Assembly: GCA_038881895.1 (NCBI GenBank)
Contig: JAVZOV010000003.1
Coordinates: 256,916 to 320,915 of the forward strand
DNA from: Thermoprotei archaeon
GTDB taxonomy: Archaea > Thermoproteota > Thermoprotei > Gearchaeales > WAQG01
Direction of reading: 5' to 3'
DNA length: 64,000 nucleotides
Positions 4,592 to 40,789 of this stretch are shown here, one piece after another; within the stretch, counting starts at the first letter, position 1; each line of letters begins with the position of its first letter. Position numbers and translations under genes: made by a program. The notes below the pieces were generated by a model. That model saw nothing but the letters and a program-made list of their open reading frames with translations. It ran no database searches and was not told where the DNA came from.

Positions 4592-5464
4592 ACGTCATCA
4601 GCAGTAATATTAACAACAGTTAAAGCCCGAGAAAAGAAAGCTAAAATAATCAATGAAATAAAAGAATACATCAAAAAATACAACATAATAGGAATAGGTG
4701 ATCTAACCAACATAGGCTCTCATGAAATACAGCTTCTACGCTCAAAACTAAGAAAGAAAGCACTAATGAAAGTAACAAAAAACACACTATTCAGTATCGC
4801 ATTTACACAAGCAAAATCACAAGAAGAATATGAAAAAATAAAACCATTCCTACAAAGTCAAAACGTCTTCATATTTACAGACATGAACCCATTCGAACTA
4901 AGCTTATTCCTAGAAAGAAACATGGTCTCAAGCGAAGCCAAACCAGGTGATATAGCACCAAATGATATAATAATACCAGCAGGAAACACTGGATTCACAC
5001 CAGGACCAATACTAAGCAAATTCGGGAAATTAAAAATACCAACAAAAATCGAAGAAGGAGCAATAGTAGTAACCAAAGATACAGTAGTAGCAAAACGAGG
5101 CGAGCAAATCAGCAGTGATGCAGTAGAAATACTAAACAAGCTAGGAATAAAACCAATGTTAAAAGGCTTAACGTTAAAAGCAGTATACTTTGACGGATAT
5201 ATCATAACAAAAGAACAACTAAAACTTGACATAGAAAACACTAAGAAACAAATACAGGAAGGTTACATCACAGCACTTAACCTATCCATAAATAGTGCAT
5301 ATCCAACACATGAAACAATAACAGTACTCATTAACATAGCCCACACAAACGCACTTAATCTAGCAATAAATGCAACAATACTTACTAAAGAAACAATACC
5401 ATTATTAATAGCAATCGCTAATACAAAAGCCAACACTCTCTTAAAACTAATACCAAGCTCATAA
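4592..5464 (+). CDS. rpl10: large ribosomal subunit protein L10 (P0), apparent ACG start
   Basis: The acidic stalk base protein that binds L12 dimers. The reading frame open from 4586 encodes an essential L10 N-terminus: helix 'VKAREKKAKIINEIKEYIKK', then 'IGIGDLTNIGSHEIQLLRSK'. No ATG, GTG or TTG occurs in frame until an ATG at 4766, which would delete 58 residues of the fold. GAGGTGA at 4580-4585 lies 6 nt before an ACG at 4592, followed by TCA, so I place the start there; ATA at 4607 is a weaker option. The C-terminus ends '...NTLLKLIPSS' and lacks the acidic tail with the GL-x-x-LFG motif usual in archaeal P0, although L12 next door has it. Confidence 0.85.
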   Translation, partial: TSSAVILTTVKAREKKAKIINEIKEYIKKYNIIGIGDLTNIGSHEIQLLRSKLRKKALMKVTKNTLFSIAFTQAKSQEEYEKIKPFLQSQNVFIFTDMNPFELSLFLERNMVSSEAKPGDIAPNDIIIPAGNTGFTPGPILSKFGKLKIPTKIEEGAIVVTKDTVVAKRGEQISSDAVEILNKLGIKPMLKGLTLKAVYFDGYIITKEQLKLDIENTKKQIQEGYITALNLSINSAYPTHETITVLINIAHTNALNLAINATILTKETIPLLIAIANTKANTLLKLIPSS

Positions 5465-25829: not shown

Positions 25830-25902
25830 GCCCCGGTGGCCTAGCTGGCAGGGCGGCCGCCTCGTAAGCGGCAGGTCGCGGGTTCAAACCCCGCCCGGGG
25901 CT
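25830..25902 (+). tRNA. tRNA-Thr (anticodon CGT)
   Basis: Acceptor GCCCCGG (25830-25836) pairs with CCGGGGC (25895-25901), discriminator T at 25902. Anticodon stem GCCGC/GCGGC with loop CTCGTAA (25861-25867; anticodon 25863-25865). T-arm GCGGG-TTCAAAC-CCCGC. No intron, CCA not encoded. The threonyl-tRNA synthetase lies about 1.3 kb downstream. Confidence 0.95.
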
Positions 25903-26282: not shown

Positions 26283-26921
26283 CTACTTTATAGCTTTAAT
26301 GCATATGAAGTTCTTACCATTGATATCTGTTGAGGGTTCTTCAACTCTAGGGGCTTCGTTTGGAGAAGTGCTTAGAGTACCTCCAAAATCTAGTATCTTG
26401 AAACCTGAGATTTCAAGCATCTCTATAACCTCATTAATAGTATAGAATTTAGCCCTAGAGTAAAATCTATGACCCTTTACTCCTAAATCAGAATAGTATT
26501 TTCCCCATGGAGAGTCACGTGGGATGATACATGTTACAATGTATCCTCCTCTCCTAAGAACTCTATAAGACTCTTTAAGAGCAGTGAGTGGATCATCAAC
26601 GAAGCATAAGGTGACAACTATGAGTGTAGAACCGAAGGTAGAATCTCTTAAAGGCATGTGTTCTCCAACTCCTAAAATTAGGTTGTCTATTCCTCTATCT
26701 TTAGCTAATTTAAGCATATTAATAGAAGGATCTAAACCAGTATCAATGTTAGCTGCTAAGGCGAAGAATCCAGGGCCTACTCCTACCTCAATAGACGGTT
26801 TTGGAGCATCTTTCATCATTAACTTTACAAGTTTGGATTCAGACTCTGCTATTATAATATTTCTTTCATACCATTTATCATAATCTCTATAAAGTTCATC
26901 GAAGAGTTTAGCTGTTGACGT
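26283..26921 (-). CDS. class I SAM-dependent methyltransferase, apparent ACG start
   Basis: The nearest ATG (26817-26819) leaves 178 residues and cuts into the fold. The same frame continues upstream to an ACG at 26919-26921 and adds 'STAKLFDELYRDYDKWYER', a standard opening for small methyltransferases; no ATG, GTG or TTG lies between. Motif I is 'SIEVGVGPGFFA', then 'GLDPSINMLKLA', 'GVGEHMPLRDSTF' and 'VLRRGGYIVTCIIPRDSPW'. That order fits UbiE-like enzymes; the substrate is unknown. A TATA box about 38 nt upstream predicts transcription starting about 12 nt before the ACG, supporting this start. Confidence 0.78.
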   Translation of the reverse strand, partial: TSTAKLFDELYRDYDKWYERNIIIAESESKLVKLMMKDAPKPSIEVGVGPGFFALAANIDTGLDPSINMLKLAKDRGIDNLILGVGEHMPLRDSTFGSTLIVVTLCFVDDPLTALKESYRVLRRGGYIVTCIIPRDSPWGKYYSDLGVKGHRFYSRAKFYTINEVIEMLEISGFKILDFGGTLSTSPNEAPRVEEPSTDINGKNFICIKAIK

Positions 26922-26954
26922 AAATTATCCCCTATATGTGTTAAGTGTGCTTTG

Positions 26955-26963
26955 TATTTATAG
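26955..26963 (-). promoter_or_regulatory. TATA box of the methyltransferase gene
   Basis: CTATAAATA on the minus strand, a near-consensus archaeal TATA box. A transcript start about 26 nt downstream falls near 26933, giving a leader of about 12 nt to the ACG and over 110 nt to the first ATG. Confidence 0.6.
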
Positions 26964-27102: not shown

Positions 27103-27177
27103 TTATTGTGTCATTGAGAGAGGTGAGGTGTTAGGTACGCTCCAAACATAAGGCCTGAGGTTCAGGCTATTGCCGCT

Positions 27178-28866
27178 GTGCTAGTTGAAAGAGCAGTCAG
27201 CAATTTTAGAAGAGTGGTACCTTTAGTGTGTGGGGTTCTCGATCAAGGTTTCTATTGTGATTTTATAGCTGAAGAATGGTTAAAGGAAGAGGATGCAATG
27301 CGTATTGAAAAATGGGTGAACGATAATGGATTTAGTGTCATAGTTAATACGTTAAAACCTGAAGAAGAGAATAATCTTAAAAGAAATCGCTCTAAGGTCT
27401 TTGAAATCTATGGAAATGTTAAGGTCAGCGCGCTTTCTGTTAATGGATATTCGAGTCTTTTAAAAGGTTCATGGAATTTTGGTTCTTTTCCACAGCAAGT
27501 TGTTGTAAAAATAACTAACATTTCAGCTCATAATCCAAGTCCGGATGTAAGATTATTGCGTGTCAGTGGAATAGCTTTTGGTTCTAAGGAAGAGTTAGAT
27601 AACTATCTAAAATACAGTGAAGAGCTTGTTAAGCGTGATCATCGCGTTTTGGGCAGAAAGCTAGATCTCTATAGTTTCCATGAAGATGCTGGTGTTGGTC
27701 TTGTACTGTTCCATCCTAAAGGCACGATAATAAGGCAAGAACTGATTAACTTAATGCGGGAAGTTAATAGGAATCTTAATTACATGGAAGTGAGCACACC
27801 ACACGTGTATAGAGTGGAATTATGGAAGATGAGCGGACATTATGAGTATTATAGAGATAGGATGATCATTTTCGATGTAAAAGATGAAAAGTACGGTGTT
27901 AAACCGATGAACTGCCCTGGGCACATTCTTATATACAAGAGTTCATTAAAGAGTTACAGAGATTTACCATTTAAACTCTCTGAATTTGGTACTGTTTACA
28001 GATGGGAGCAAGAAGGTGAGCTCTATGGACTTCTTAGATTGAGAGGATTCACCCAGGATGATGGACACGCATTTCTTAGAGAAGACCAAGTGAAAGATGA
28101 AGTGAAAAATATATTAAATGAGGTCACTCGAATCCTAAGCTTATTTGGGTTCAAAAAGGATGATGTAAAAATATCACTCAGCACAAGACCAGCACATAGC
28201 ATCGGTACTGACGAACAGTGGAGAAAAGCAGAGAAAGCTCTTAAAGAAGCCCTTTACGAGATTAGGATGGATTATGAAGTAAAGGAAGGTGAGGGTGCGT
28301 TTTACGGTCCAAAGATTGATGTTGATTTTAGAGATAATTTAGGTAGATGGTGGCAATGTTCAACAATACAAGTGGACTTTGCGCTCCCAGAACGGTTTGA
28401 CATATATTATATAGATCAGGATAACAAGCCTAAAAGACCGGTCATGGTTCACAGAGCCATCCTTGGCAGCATAGAAAGATTCATGGCAATAATTATAGAA
28501 AACTTCAGCGGACGATTACCAACATGGCTTTCACCAATCCAAGTCACAGTTATACCCATTACAAATGCACAAAACGAATACGCAATGAAAATTACACAAC
28601 TACTTGAATCAAAGAATATCCGTGCTACAGTGGACCTCAGTCCAGACACATTAAACAAAAAGATTAAGAACGCTTACGATCAAAGTATACCATACATTAT
28701 AATAGTTGGGAAAAAAGAAGCAGAAACTGGAAAAATATCTATAAGAGCCAGAGGAGGAAAAGAAGCAAAAGATATTGAACTAAACACCTTCATAGAATTA
28801 CTCTCTAATGAAATTTCAACACGAAGCTTAACTCAATATACTATCGACTCCCTCATCAAAATTTAA
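27178..28866 (+). CDS. thrS: threonyl-tRNA synthetase, bacterial-type layout with decayed editing domain
   Basis: 562 residues from GTG 27178; homology to the SAD region suggests the protein begins further up (open to 27127: 'RYAPNIRPEVQAIAAV'), but no canonical start exists there. The N-terminal TGS domain is absent. The editing (SAD-like) region is recognisable ('VLDQGFYCDF', 'GIAFGSKEELDNYL') but its HxxxH and C-x-GPH catalytic motifs are gone. The class II core is complete: 'VKPMNCPGHILIYKSSLKSY', 'TVYRWEQEGELYGLLRLRGF', 'QDDGHAF', followed by an anticodon-binding domain. It charges tRNA-Thr; proofreading must come from elsewhere, as in archaea with a separate editing ThrRS. Confidence 0.92.
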   Translation: MLVERAVSNFRRVVPLVCGVLDQGFYCDFIAEEWLKEEDAMRIEKWVNDNGFSVIVNTLKPEEENNLKRNRSKVFEIYGNVKVSALSVNGYSSLLKGSWNFGSFPQQVVVKITNISAHNPSPDVRLLRVSGIAFGSKEELDNYLKYSEELVKRDHRVLGRKLDLYSFHEDAGVGLVLFHPKGTIIRQELINLMREVNRNLNYMEVSTPHVYRVELWKMSGHYEYYRDRMIIFDVKDEKYGVKPMNCPGHILIYKSSLKSYRDLPFKLSEFGTVYRWEQEGELYGLLRLRGFTQDDGHAFLREDQVKDEVKNILNEVTRILSLFGFKKDDVKISLSTRPAHSIGTDEQWRKAEKALKEALYEIRMDYEVKEGEGAFYGPKIDVDFRDNLGRWWQCSTIQVDFALPERFDIYYIDQDNKPKRPVMVHRAILGSIERFMAIIIENFSGRLPTWLSPIQVTVIPITNAQNEYAMKITQLLESKNIRATVDLSPDTLNKKIKNAYDQSIPYIIIVGKKEAETGKISIRARGGKEAKDIELNTFIELLSNEISTRSLTQYTIDSLIKI

Positions 28867-34924: not shown

Positions 34925-35230
34925 TTATCGCTTCCTTCCACGTGCTCTCAAATGTCTTCCGTTGACTGTAACGGATTCAACGCCACAGCCAAAGTTCAAC
35001 CTCACCTCAAAATCAGCCCAGGAGCTCTTCTTCTCATGCGAGCACCACGTCTTGAGAAATCCTGCAAACATCTGCCCTCCCTTGCTATCGCTCGAAACTT
35101 TGTTTAATCTGATTCCTGTTATCCTCTGATAAGGAGGTAAGAATAGCCCGAGCGTCTTGGACAGGCGCCTTGCCTCCTCTTGAAGTGCACGATGCTGCAA
35201 CTCGTGAAGCTCGTTCTTGTTTTCGGTCAT
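34925..35230 (-). CDS. small protein of the molybdenum oxidoreductase operon, unknown
   Basis: 101 residues. The ATG overlaps the stop of the catalytic subunit gene (ATGA), so it is translationally coupled and real. The N-terminal half is charged and helical ('NELHELQHRALQEEARRLSK'); the C-terminus ends in a basic patch ('GRHLRARGRKR'). I do not recognise a family. Position suggests an accessory role such as assembly; inference only. Confidence 0.6.
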   Translation of the reverse strand: MTENKNELHELQHRALQEEARRLSKTLGLFLPPYQRITGIRLNKVSSDSKGGQMFAGFLKTWCSHEKKSSWADFEVRLNFGCGVESVTVNGRHLRARGRKR

Positions 35231-38200
35231 TCACGCGCTCGCACTTTTACGACATTCACTTTTGTATCGAAGAAGCTGGCGCTTCCGCCGATGGGATCGG
35301 TCAAGCACGCGCCTGTCATCACTTTGTCCAGGAGGAGGACTGGATTCCCTATCAAGCCTGCTCTGCGTCGTTCGTCGCCGGGGATAGTGATTCCGTCGAC
35401 AGTTGCGTCAGCTGCACCGTAGTTCCAGTGCCCATAGGAAAGAGAGACGGCGATGGTTCCGGGGCGTATGCCCTGTATTATTTTGAGCTTACCCTCGACG
35501 AAGCGCTTCCCCAGCTCGCCTAGGTCGAAGCTCCCAGTCGGGTTGGATGCCGAAACCAGCCGAACTATGTCCCCATCTTTTAGTCCCAACCTCCTCGCAT
35601 CTAACGCATTCATGAGAACGAAGTTGGACGGCAGAATCAACAGTTGAGACCAGTAGTTTGACACGGTGCGTTTAGCGCCAAATATCTCCTTGAACGTGGA
35701 TAACCAGAAGGCGTAGCCATCGTTGGGCAGCGGACTCCCATCGCTGAATGACGGTGGCCTATAACGGGGGACGCCAGAAAAGTGCTTGCCGGTAATGCTG
35801 TCGATGCCAGCTGCGATAGGTTCGACATAGATGTTCCACAGTTTGCCAAAGGGATGGCTGAGGTATGACCCGCTGTACGCTTTCTCTGACGACTCGAACC
35901 TCCCGCCTCGGTTCAACACGTAAATGACGCGAGCCCAGTTCTCGGTCCCAACGCTGGCCTTCCATTTCTCAGGGTTGAAGACGGCTGAAGGTAGATAACG
36001 TCGCGCTTGCAAGAAGAGCGAAATCTCGTCAGGGTCTGCTTCGGGCACGGAGTCGCCTGGTGCATCCCCGCTAGCTATGTTCGCCACCGCCTTCAAGTAG
36101 AAATCCTCCGGCCTGTTGAATGGTAGTCCAGGAGCGAAGCCATCTGGGCCGTAACCCGGTGCTTTGAGTTCCTTAGCAATCGCTATCATTACCGCCTCCA
36201 TGCTGATTGGCATCTCCTCCCCATCGACTGTCACGATTTCTGGTACAGGGATGGCAGCAGGCTGCCTCACCAACGATGTCTTTGTGACCACGCTCGGAGG
36301 GGCTCCCATGAATGCCCAACGTTCGAGGTAGCTCAGGTCAGGAAAGATGTAGTCTGCATACATAGACGTATCCCCAATAACTATGTCATCAGCAATGAGA
36401 AGCGGTATCGCGTTCGTGTCTCTTAGTATCGCAATCTGCTCTGTACCGGCCGGGGCAAGCTGGACGGGGTTCCCCATATGCAGCCAAAGTATCTTGATAG
36501 GATATGGATAGCCAGCTTTGGCTGCAGGAAGGACCTCTTGGTAAATGTTGCCCGTAAACGGATACCAAGGCCGTTTGGCGGGATAGCCTTCGAAGAGTGT
36601 TGACCTTTCATAGAACGATCCTTCACGCGTGAGCTTTACCCCGAATGGAGTCAACTTGCCTGTGTGAAGCTTCGCGAGATTGAAGGGTTGCCCCGCCTTT
36701 GTGCCCATCGCGTCCCACGCGCCTCCTCCGACTGACAGACCTCCCTTCCAGTCCGGGTTTCCGACCAGCAGGTTCAAGATGATTAAGGCTTGTGCTGTAT
36801 AGTATCCGTTCCAGTGCTGAACTGCTCCACGGTAAAAGTCGATGGCCGCCCTTGGACCGTGGCTCGTGAACTCAGCTGCGAGTTCGACTATCGCTTTTGG
36901 ATCCAGACCAGCCTTCTCGGCCCAGCCCTCGATTGTGTCCTCTGCAGCGGCCTCCCTCACAAGCTGCAGTGCACTCTTGACGTGTATCCCCGAGATTGTC
37001 GTGTCAACGAACAGATCTCCTATCACTATATTGTCTGAATCGTATGGGTCGAATGCGATAGCACGACCATTAGAGATAACCACAAAGTAATCCTGCGCGT
37101 TCTTTCCTTCGGGAACCTTCAGACCAATATCCCCCGCCCTCAGGAACTGCCCTGGCGTCCCGTCCTCCCCTATCTTCACCAGCCAAGTCGCATTCGTCCA
37201 GCTCTTCTGGCCAGTAGCAAGAGCCGCTGCCTTGTTCGCGTTCTGCAGAAAACCACGATTGTAACGGTTGTTCTCGATAATCCACTGGATCATGGCCATG
37301 GCGAGGGGAAGGTCGCCCCCTGGAACCACTGGAAGCCATCGCCACGCCTTCGCCGCCGTCTTGCTGAACCTCGGATCTATTACTGCGAACTTGAAGTTCT
37401 TGGCCTCTGACGTCAAAGAGGAGGTAATCTGTTCGGAGATGGGCGTTGGTCCGAAGTTCGCTTCGAAGGCGCCGGTCCCCCAGAAGATGACGAACTCCGA
37501 CTCTAGGTAGTTCGGCTTGGCGTGGTTTGGGCCAGGTGTCCATTTACCGCTCGTGTACTGAGCGGTCGACCATTGGTAGGCAACGTGGTGACTTAGTTCG
37601 CAAATCGAGGTGTGGTTGAACCAGTTCACTGAGCCTAAAGCTCCATATGTGAACCTCTGTGCAAAGGAGTCCCGACCTCCCTCAATCCTGCCTGCTAAGA
37701 AGACGAACTGGTTATTCTTCGGCCCGAGGTCTGGGTGATCTGGGTCTATCAGAACATCCAGGTACGAAGAATACTTGCTCTTGAACTCGGCTACGCTCAT
37801 CTTGCCCTGCTGAATCAAGGCAACATCGCTTGCCATGGCAGCAGAAAGCTTCGCATCCTTCAGCACAAAGACGTCTTTGAACCCCGGTACATATCGGTCT
37901 TCGCCTATGCTCTCGAACAGCTTTCCCCCGTTGACTATCTCTTTGATCGCTTGGTCGAAAGAGATCGTCTGCCACTTGTTCGAGCCACGGGGACCGGCAC
38001 GCTTGAGGACTTTGACGATTCTATAGGGGTCGGCGTAGGATTGAATCCCGGACTGCCCCTTTGGGCAGAGCTTCCCGTCCACTGGGGCAGCGAGCCGCGG
38101 GCTAACATCATAGTCAAGCCATGGAAGCATTGTGAGCGGGCTGTAGGGACTGCCGTCAATCTTTGATATCTTCCCATCCGATCGATGTTTCACCTTAATC

Positions 38201-38460
38201 GCGCACTGGGTATTGCATTGCAGACAGGCGCTGTAAATTGTGTTCTCTGGGAGGTTAGGGCTGTATTGAGGGGGCGCCTGAGGGCTCTCGCCACCAACCT
38301 GCAGCACTCGCAGGCCATCCAACGCAACCAGTGCTAGGACACCTGCGCCTCCCAGGAAAGCAGCTGATTTCAGGAACCCTCGGCGCGTTGAAGCGAGTTC
38401 GTTTCTCTTCATCCGCTGCGGCTCATTCTCTTTTGGCCAATTCTCTCCATTTCCATTCAT
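35227..38460 (-). CDS. molybdopterin oxidoreductase catalytic subunit (tetrathionate/selenate reductase-like)
   Basis: 1077 residues. A Tat signal 'STRRGFLKSAAFLGGAGVLA' follows a hydrophilic leader, so the folded protein is exported. An N-terminal [4Fe-4S] motif C-x2-C-x3-C ('SACLQCNTQCAI') with a fourth Cys in 'DGKLCPKGQSG' and bis-MGD binding segments place it in the DMSO reductase superfamily. 'NHTSICELSHHVAYQ' probably holds the Mo-ligating Cys. Length and the order B-C-A resemble TtrA and Bacillus SrdA. Substrate (tetrathionate, selenate, arsenate or other) cannot be decided. GC content and codon use are far above the surroundings, implying transfer. Confidence 0.82.
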   Translation of the reverse strand: MNGNGENWPKENEPQRMKRNELASTRRGFLKSAAFLGGAGVLALVALDGLRVLQVGGESPQAPPQYSPNLPENTIYSACLQCNTQCAIKVKHRSDGKISKIDGSPYSPLTMLPWLDYDVSPRLAAPVDGKLCPKGQSGIQSYADPYRIVKVLKRAGPRGSNKWQTISFDQAIKEIVNGGKLFESIGEDRYVPGFKDVFVLKDAKLSAAMASDVALIQQGKMSVAEFKSKYSSYLDVLIDPDHPDLGPKNNQFVFLAGRIEGGRDSFAQRFTYGALGSVNWFNHTSICELSHHVAYQWSTAQYTSGKWTPGPNHAKPNYLESEFVIFWGTGAFEANFGPTPISEQITSSLTSEAKNFKFAVIDPRFSKTAAKAWRWLPVVPGGDLPLAMAMIQWIIENNRYNRGFLQNANKAAALATGQKSWTNATWLVKIGEDGTPGQFLRAGDIGLKVPEGKNAQDYFVVISNGRAIAFDPYDSDNIVIGDLFVDTTISGIHVKSALQLVREAAAEDTIEGWAEKAGLDPKAIVELAAEFTSHGPRAAIDFYRGAVQHWNGYYTAQALIILNLLVGNPDWKGGLSVGGGAWDAMGTKAGQPFNLAKLHTGKLTPFGVKLTREGSFYERSTLFEGYPAKRPWYPFTGNIYQEVLPAAKAGYPYPIKILWLHMGNPVQLAPAGTEQIAILRDTNAIPLLIADDIVIGDTSMYADYIFPDLSYLERWAFMGAPPSVVTKTSLVRQPAAIPVPEIVTVDGEEMPISMEAVMIAIAKELKAPGYGPDGFAPGLPFNRPEDFYLKAVANIASGDAPGDSVPEADPDEISLFLQARRYLPSAVFNPEKWKASVGTENWARVIYVLNRGGRFESSEKAYSGSYLSHPFGKLWNIYVEPIAAGIDSITGKHFSGVPRYRPPSFSDGSPLPNDGYAFWLSTFKEIFGAKRTVSNYWSQLLILPSNFVLMNALDARRLGLKDGDIVRLVSASNPTGSFDLGELGKRFVEGKLKIIQGIRPGTIAVSLSYGHWNYGAADATVDGITIPGDERRRAGLIGNPVLLLDKVMTGACLTDPIGGSASFFDTKVNVVKVRARE

Positions 38461-39746
38461 TTTTTAAGCACCTCTTCAAGAGGGATGATCTTCACCAGCA
38501 GAACATAGAGGAGGATCAACAGGGATATGCTCGAAACCTCAACGAGTATCTCCCATAACGAAGGGAAGTACGGCAGGCCCGCACCAAGATTGGGCCACAA
38601 CTCCCCGCTGACTCCCGGTATCGAAGTCCAAGGTGACGACTTTATATCCCAGTCCAAGGGCATGTTCGGCAATGGAAGCTCATTAAGTGCAGGCAGGACT
38701 ATGTTGAACTTGATACCGATGATCCCAAGCACTATCATGAGCCCCGCGATACAGGCCATGATAGGTGCTTTGCTCGGCGGCCTATAGAGGAGCAATGCTG
38801 CAGGTATCAAGAACCCGATGAGGAGCTCGTCAATCCAGAATACCCACCAATAGGGGCCAAGAACCAGCAGAGAAGCGATGAGAGTATTCTCTTGGGGAGC
38901 GGTTGGCCAGAAGGAGGTAACGAGTTCCCAGAACACGAAGAACCATTCGATGAAGAGCAAGAGAAGGACCACGTCCCTCAGTTTGTCCGTGGCAACTGAA
39001 TCAACCTTTATCCCCAAGGCCCTGTTCGTGATAATGTAAGTCGCCAGTAGGAAGGCAGCCCCGCTTAGCATAGCCGAGAGCACGAAGTGGATTGGAGTAT
39101 ATCCCCCAAACCACATCGCACGCCACCCAAGGACGCCGAAGATAGCACCCGTCCCTCCGTTTGCCGCGACCGGAATCCCAACGATTGCCAGAATTCGCAC
39201 AACCTTCCTGTCTCTCAGCTGACTCCCGTCGCTCAAATCTGATGAGCCCAGAGATATAATGCTGTAGAGGGTTTTCCTTATACCCACAGTGGTTGACTTC
39301 AGCCTTACCAGGTCGGTGCGACAGGCAAAGTAAAGCTCTGATAACAGAATCAAGACGTAGACCACGTACATCCAAGCTTCTATCGCCATCCACGAGGAGA
39401 AGTTGGGGCTGGTATACAGGTAGATGAAGCGGTCCATCCTCCCCAGGTCTGGGAGGACGCTGAGGAAAGCGCCTAGGAGGGAGAGAATAGCAACTATTAA
39501 CGCGTACCTGCCCACCTTCTCCAGGTCTTTGAAGTTGAAGCCGTACACCAAGGAAGAAACGAGGAAAGCACCGGCGCTGAGACCCGCGAAAAATATATAG
39601 AAAGCTATCCAGAGGCCCCAAGCAGTAAAGGAGGGGGAGAGGGCCGTTACCTTGAGCCCTTCAACCGCCCTGACATACCACCCATAGCTGGTGCTTGCAG
39701 TGAGGATGGCGAGGAGGATTACCAAGAAAAGATATTTCCTGGTCAC
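38457..39746 (-). CDS. NrfD/TtrC-like membrane subunit
   Basis: 429 residues with about nine or ten hydrophobic spans. The N-terminal 'FTAWGLWIAFYIFFAGLSAG' and the order of helices match the NrfD/PsrC family, which passes electrons between the quinone pool and the Fe-S subunit. It overlaps the Fe-S gene upstream and the catalytic gene downstream by 4 nt each, a tightly coupled operon. GC-rich like its partners. Confidence 0.85.
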   Translation of the reverse strand: MTRKYLFLVILLAILTASTSYGWYVRAVEGLKVTALSPSFTAWGLWIAFYIFFAGLSAGAFLVSSLVYGFNFKDLEKVGRYALIVAILSLLGAFLSVLPDLGRMDRFIYLYTSPNFSSWMAIEAWMYVVYVLILLSELYFACRTDLVRLKSTTVGIRKTLYSIISLGSSDLSDGSQLRDRKVVRILAIVGIPVAANGGTGAIFGVLGWRAMWFGGYTPIHFVLSAMLSGAAFLLATYIITNRALGIKVDSVATDKLRDVVLLLLFIEWFFVFWELVTSFWPTAPQENTLIASLLVLGPYWWVFWIDELLIGFLIPAALLLYRPPSKAPIMACIAGLMIVLGIIGIKFNIVLPALNELPLPNMPLDWDIKSSPWTSIPGVSGELWPNLGAGLPYFPSLWEILVEVSSISLLILLYVLLVKIIPLEEVLKK

Positions 39747-40789
39747 TTCAGCGACACCCCCAGCGGGACCTTAAGCTCGCGCTGAAGTAACACCTTCACA
39801 AAGTCATCTAAGGCAGCGTCTATGTCCTTAACATCAATGTCGGTTCCCCCACTGCCGGGGCCCACGATGTAGTATACCGAAGGCTCGGTGCCCAGTTCCT
39901 CCTTCAACCTGATGGCCCTGTTCTCTTTGAGCAGCTCGCTCACTAGGCTCTTAGGATTCTTGATGTCCCCGAAGTAGTTCGCGACGCCCATACACGTCGT
40001 AACACACTGTGGAAGCATGCCGTTGTCTATCCTCTGTGTGCAGAAATGGCACTTCCTCGTCACGCCCACCAAATCGGCTCTCCGCCAACGGCCATACCAT
40101 GGAGTCGACACGTATTCCATGCTCGGTAAGTCATCCACTAGACTCTTGGCTTCCTTGTTCATCAGGGGAGCGTTGGTCGCGGGTCCAGCGGGCGTGGAAT
40201 CCCAGTCAAATCCGAAGTCTGTAGCCCTAGCTCCATACGGGCAGGCGGCGACGCAGTACCTGCAACCGATGCACTTGCTGTAATCAATGACGACGACGCC
40301 GTCTTCTCTCTTCCACGTGGCCTTGACTGGGCAGACGGGCACGCATGGAGGGTTGTCGCAGTGAAAACAAGGGCGTGGCAGGAACGCACGCGAAACATTG
40401 GGATACTCACCAGTTTCCCACTCAAGGACCGGCCTGTATGTGACCCCCGGAGGGGACCTGTTCTCAGCTATGCACGCGACGGTGCAGGCATGACACGCCA
40501 CACACTTCCTGAGGTCGATGACCATGACCCATCTCCTTTCCGTGATTGGCTTTTGCAGGGATTCCTGAAGCTCTCTCTGCATCCTCAAAAGCACACCTTC
40601 ATTTTCCTTCTGCGCGGGCAGGCTAGGCAGGTAGCGAGACTCGTTGAGCGGCTCGGTTTTGGCCTCGGCGAGGACCTTCGTAAGAGGCATGAGAACGGTA
40701 GCGCCGACCGCACAAGTAATCGCCGCCGTTCTCAGGAACTCCCGCCGCGATCGATCCCTTGGATTAACGGTCGTGCCTACGGAGCTCAT
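39743..40789 (-). CDS. four-cluster Fe-S electron transfer subunit (TtrB/SrdB-like)
   Basis: 348 residues. A Tat-like N-terminus 'RSRREFLRTAAITCAVGATV' is followed by four cysteine clusters: 'CVACHACTVAC', 'CFHCDNPPCVPVC', 'CIGCRYCVAAC' and 'CHFCTQRIDNGMLPQC...C', the ferredoxin-like pattern of DMSO reductase family B subunits. It links the catalytic subunit with NrfD. The ATG is preceded by AGGAGG. First gene of the operon; promoter near 40900. Confidence 0.9.
   Translation of the reverse strand: MSSVGTTVNPRDRSRREFLRTAAITCAVGATVLMPLTKVLAEAKTEPLNESRYLPSLPAQKENEGVLLRMQRELQESLQKPITERRWVMVIDLRKCVACHACTVACIAENRSPPGVTYRPVLEWETGEYPNVSRAFLPRPCFHCDNPPCVPVCPVKATWKREDGVVVIDYSKCIGCRYCVAACPYGARATDFGFDWDSTPAGPATNAPLMNKEAKSLVDDLPSMEYVSTPWYGRWRRADLVGVTRKCHFCTQRIDNGMLPQCVTTCMGVANYFGDIKNPKSLVSELLKENRAIRLKEELGTEPSVYYIVGPGSGGTDIDVKDIDAALDDFVKVLLQRELKVPLGVSLK

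Follow-up and report, generated by a model that had tools for sequence, protein, structure and literature searches.

Does translation begin at ACG in this thermophile-type archaeon? The question was raised by the gene for a methyltransferase lying within the 64,000 nucleotides analysed here (the window), the frame of which the initial annotation followed 34 residues back, without any standard start, to ACG-TCA. A second gene opening with ACG-TCA had been noticed in the same window, and both proved to be real (26921 and 4592). The features of these genes are collected in Table 1.

Table 1. Position and basis of the features discussed (coordinates of the window)
Feature	Position	Strand	Basis
Ribosomal protein L10 (P0), read from ACG	4592..5464	+	homologues in 24 of 25 genomes
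ACG start codon of L10, then TCA	4592..4594	+	homologue start column
Perfect Shine-Dalgarno site GAGGTGA, overlapping the L1 stop codon	4579..4585	+	sequence
Class I SAM-dependent methyltransferase (UbiE/Methyltransf_11 type), read from ACG	26283..26921	-	Pfam PF08241 and relatives
ACG start codon of the methyltransferase, then TCA (Ser)	26919..26921	-	homologue start column; no earlier standard start
TATAAATA, putative TATA box of the methyltransferase promoter	26962-26955	-	sequence; genome-wide box positions
GGGGAT, putative Shine-Dalgarno-like site, 5 of 6 bases of GGTGAT	26927..26932	-	sequence reading
Threonyl-tRNA synthetase, no standard start before GTG 27178	27127..28866	+	sequence

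The start of the methyltransferase gene

The long reading of the methyltransferase was confirmed on the minus strand. The frame opens at 26924, directly after TAA (26927-26925), with TTT ACG TCA ACA GCT AAA CTC TTC GAT GAA, and contains no ATG, GTG or TTG from 26924 until the first ATG at 26819, which lies 34 codons past the ACG. This ACG is the sole one-mismatch neighbour of ATG within the first 22 codons. Read from it the gene is intact (212-213 codons) and its product matches Pfam PF08241 (Methyltransf_11) with an E-value of 1.3e-14 and 55 bits, passing the curated cut-off of 21.2. Relatives were found in 52 of the 61 genomes searched, the nearest being about 45-51% identical, and this search gave no full-length relative in the genome of the same family.

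The starts were aligned on the conserved LFD/IFN block. In 11 homologues (L001, L008, L009, L010, L012-L015, L019, L021 and L024) the column of the ACG is occupied by ATG, GTG or TTG, often with Ser next. The homologue L007 of genome G027 also has ACG TCA in this column, which is not decisive because an in-frame GTG lies three codons upstream.

The putative TATA box, TATAAATA, has its first base at -41 and its centre at about -38 relative to the ACG, in line with the box 38 nt upstream and the short leader described initially. Throughout the genome, TATA-like boxes ahead of reliable starts cluster near -42 to -37 and near -33 to -28, which makes a leader of roughly 10-12 nt plausible for this mRNA. 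The GGGGAT found 5 nt ahead of the ACG resembles a weak Shine-Dalgarno site.

The gene is flanked by a tRNA-Thr (CGT, 25830-25902), which reads ACG, and by the gene for threonyl-tRNA synthetase; the position of an ACG-start gene between these two is probably a coincidence. Elsewhere in the window, positions 36001-40000 have a G+C content of 54% against about 38% around them and coincide with three large minus-strand ORFs (35227-40789), possibly representing an acquired block.

The L10 gene and the alternatives for both starts

The gene for ribosomal protein L10 opens with ACG TCA TCA GCA, and its earliest standard start is an ATG at 4766, 58 codons on, the use of which would remove 58 residues. 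The GAGGTGA lies 6 nt before the ACG, the right spacing for a ribosome-binding signal of L10. All three relatives of the same order have a standard start in the ACG column (ATG-TCA, ATG-TCG and GTG-TCA), and two more distant relatives of the same class have GTG AGC there. The case at 4592 is stronger than that of the methyltransferase because of this perfect Shine-Dalgarno site and the agreement of the same-order relatives.

One alternative is that a mutation removed the start of the methyltransferase, so that the gene is now in decay and its ACG a dead start. The gene looks dispensable, given that the genome of the same family has no full-length relative, and only a weak Shine-Dalgarno-like site precedes its ACG. 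Nevertheless the frame is intact, with a predicted promoter and conserved motifs, and the same ACG-TCA occurs in the gene for L10, a protein that is expected to be essential and can hardly have a dead start. We regard decay as unlikely.

Another explanation is that a standard start lies in a short exon farther upstream, which removal of a bulge-helix-bulge intron joins to the gene, or that a frameshift connects an out-of-frame start to it. Both have some precedent in this genome, as purA probably carries such an intron and thrC may use an out-of-frame ATG. For the methyltransferase, however, no bulge-helix-bulge candidate yields an in-frame standard start, and a leader intron was therefore rejected; moreover the sole out-of-frame ATG close to its start falls within the conserved LFDELY block. 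In L10 the one candidate found consists purely of A/U pairs and would fuse L10 to L1. Little weight can be given to splicing or frameshifting at either gene.

The purA gene (adenylosuccinate synthetase, C3:245263-246320, minus strand) lies outside the window. It has a 22-nt insert at about 246245, between GDEGK and GKI, and the same-family genome G001 has a 21-nt insert at the same site (loci L276 and L286). Both inserts contain stop codons and their excision restores GDEGKGKI, whereas the other relatives whose match covers the site read through without a stop. In the predicted fold of each insert a 4-bp central helix (GGGG:CCCC or GGGG:CCCU) has AAA bulges on each side, while the inner helices differ in sequence. 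The 21-22-nt insert is thus probably an archaeal bulge-helix-bulge mRNA intron, judging from its position and predicted fold. Among protein genes such an intron is known from cbf5 (PMC2738675).

Near-cognate starts across the genome

A genome-wide count of ACG starts had been proposed as a check. The counts given here refer to 1.26 Mb of the 1.75 Mb genome (72%). In 290 genes the starts were compared with those of relatives in G002, G013 and G027; five genes were flagged and four are truly without a standard start, namely L10 (ACG), the methyltransferase (ACG), a thiolase (CTG) and threonine synthase (ambiguous). Well-supported ACG starts therefore number two among 290. As ACG makes up 0.56% of codons, the chance of two ACG among four is about 2e-4 by our own arithmetic. 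The thiolase (C1:140279) was rejected as a further ACG gene, its relatives placing the start one codon on, at CTG. A flat 64-codon scan of starts without homology was too noisy and was discarded.

Threonine synthase (C3:40077, plus strand; L141-L144) was also rejected as an ACG gene, being ambiguous: it has no in-frame standard start and its Shine-Dalgarno site serves an out-of-frame ATG, found at a similar place in several relatives. This arrangement suggests a frameshift or a mis-assigned start common to the class.

A second scan looked for coding extensions that lack a standard start and have a near-cognate codon behind a Shine-Dalgarno site of at least 6 bases. It added four ATT genes, which are a thiD-like gene (C1:396837), C1:290986, a radical-SAM gene (C2:128136) and a small protein (C2:241304). 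Weaker candidates are an ATC (C3:39347) and the AGG of threonyl-tRNA synthetase (27133), which follows a GAGGTGA (27120-27126) by 6 nt. Most of the CTG, ACG and ATT cases have Shine-Dalgarno sites of 7-9 nt. The same scan gave no convincing near-cognate case in 1,111 control genes of three relatives. Once the more frequent use of Shine-Dalgarno sites in the present genome is corrected for, the excess is modest, at about 7 of 94 Shine-Dalgarno-led genes here against 0 of 43 in the controls (p about 0.07, calculated by hand). The control is also not clean: such sites are used less often in these relatives, and the homology test points to CTG starts in G027 itself (carA at 202038, and 213618).

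Two further genes without a standard start were noted. The proC gene lacks one both in G002 (C10 sample, about 4371) and in the present genome (C1:38915); both copies read GTG NNN TGA TTC CAG, and a Shine-Dalgarno-like site lies 5 nt ahead of the TTC. The G002 copy is intact, whereas in the present one a hairpin sequence resembling the end of a mobile element interrupts the gene after about 121 codons. In G027, a single-contig genome, argG (C1:212265, minus strand) has no standard start for 87 codons, and the conserved KIALAYSGGLDTT block lies inside this stretch.

These counts also bear on the possibility that the true codon is ATG and that ACG arose by error in sequencing or assembly or at the level of the strain. 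One transition is enough to turn ATG into ACG, the genome is fragmentary, with 7 contigs, and each ACG rests on the sequence of one genome, which counts against reading it as a start. An error rate spoiling 4 of 290 starts would, by our own estimate, leave about 77 nonsense codons among the 73,888 that were compared (243 genes), but no more than one plausible case turned up, and random base error is consequently very unlikely. The check flagged five alignment stops and two frame changes, most of the stops being at gene ends or upstream of genes. A motif-specific miscall is opposed by the lack of any excess of ACGTCA in the window (15 seen, 14.1 expected); as a special hexamer it was accordingly dismissed, and the signal is one of position. 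The other near-cognate starts, moreover, are ATT and CTG and not only T-to-C changes. Error in any of its forms appears distinctly improbable.

Editing of the mRNA from C to U, as in plant chloroplasts, would turn ACG into AUG. In its favour, both ACG sites have the sequence ACGTCA[A/T]CAGC, which occurs nowhere else in the 1.26 Mb. However, such editing cannot make AUG from the ATT cases and would turn CTG into UUG, and we know of no C-to-U editing of mRNA in archaea. We consider it extremely improbable.

The initial view, that this organism genuinely starts translation at ACG and that the codon is no error, holds in part. Homology places both starts at ACG, but the claim was too narrow, as ATT, with about four genes, and CTG, with one, are seemingly used at least as often; on the present sequences ACG is one of several near-cognate starts and not a private rule.

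Initiation at ACG and known systems

The initial annotation had directed attention to the initiator tRNA and the initiation factors; the initiator tRNA and, among the factors, aIF1 look ordinary. The initiator tRNA has the anticodon CAT and the usual GGG/CCC anticodon stem, and an altered initiator was therefore rejected. No initiator-type tRNA with anticodon CGT was seen, which speaks against a reassigned initiator reading ACG; the CGT tRNA of the window lacks the GGG/CCC stem and reads as an ordinary tRNA-Thr. Loss or an odd sequence of aIF1 was likewise rejected, the factor being present with an ordinary core. With both components ordinary, the likeliest mechanism would be that the initiator tRNA mispairs with ACG and that a Shine-Dalgarno site or short leader assists it. 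Against ACG initiation stands the finding that aIF1 of the crenarchaeon Sulfolobus discriminates against non-canonical starts (PMC6237735, PMC8211752).

In the methyltransferase gene RNA polymerase would start about 10-12 nt upstream of the ACG, under the direction of the TATA box, and the short leader together with GGGGAT may place the 30S subunit. The ordinary initiator tRNA (CAU) would then start at ACG with methionine despite the mismatch at the second position. L10 would be initiated in the same way, its perfect Shine-Dalgarno site making up for the poor codon. We think it likely, from the positions of the codons and the homologous starts, that both genes are translated from ACG by the ordinary initiator tRNA and that the organism tolerates one-mismatch starts (ACG, ATT, CTG) in roughly 1% of its genes, mostly behind strong Shine-Dalgarno sites. 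Since ACG stands where relatives have ATG, GTG or TTG, about 1% of the proteins are probably started at near-miss codons. A more far-reaching suggestion, which we offer only tentatively, is that start selection has become relaxed in this lineage, with ACG, AUU and CUG retained through evolution as regular starts of about 1% of its genes, L10 included, possibly as a translational brake like the AUU of infC.

Gene finders accept as a rule only ATG, GTG and TTG, and proteins of this kind are therefore truncated or missed; L10 would lose 58 residues and the methyltransferase 34. If ACG initiation in an archaeon is true, the eukaryote-like selection of starts by aIF1, aIF1A and aIF2 can be tested on natural near-cognate starts, for which L10, the methyltransferase and the ATT genes are a ready set.

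To our knowledge ACG is absent from the NCBI start list for table 11. A literature search, beyond the reach of which lay most subscription journals, turned up no published ACG start for an archaeon. A review in which ACG goes unmentioned gives AUG, GUG and UUG as the archaeal starts (PMC7531240). The archaeal GUG and UUG starts resemble the present case in that the initiator tRNA acts at a codon mismatched to CAU, on leadered and leaderless messages (PMC7531240), whereas the ACG here mismatches at the second base. There is also a likeness to infC in that both involve a translation gene with a one-mismatch start behind a Shine-Dalgarno site, kept in evolution. The bacterial infC starts at AUU, which serves feedback by IF3, while archaea use aIF1. 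Eukaryotes and their viruses also have ACG starts, and chloroplasts have ACG codons that are edited. In all of these ACG stands in the place of AUG, although its use there depends on scanning or RNA editing and would depend here on a short leader or a Shine-Dalgarno site.
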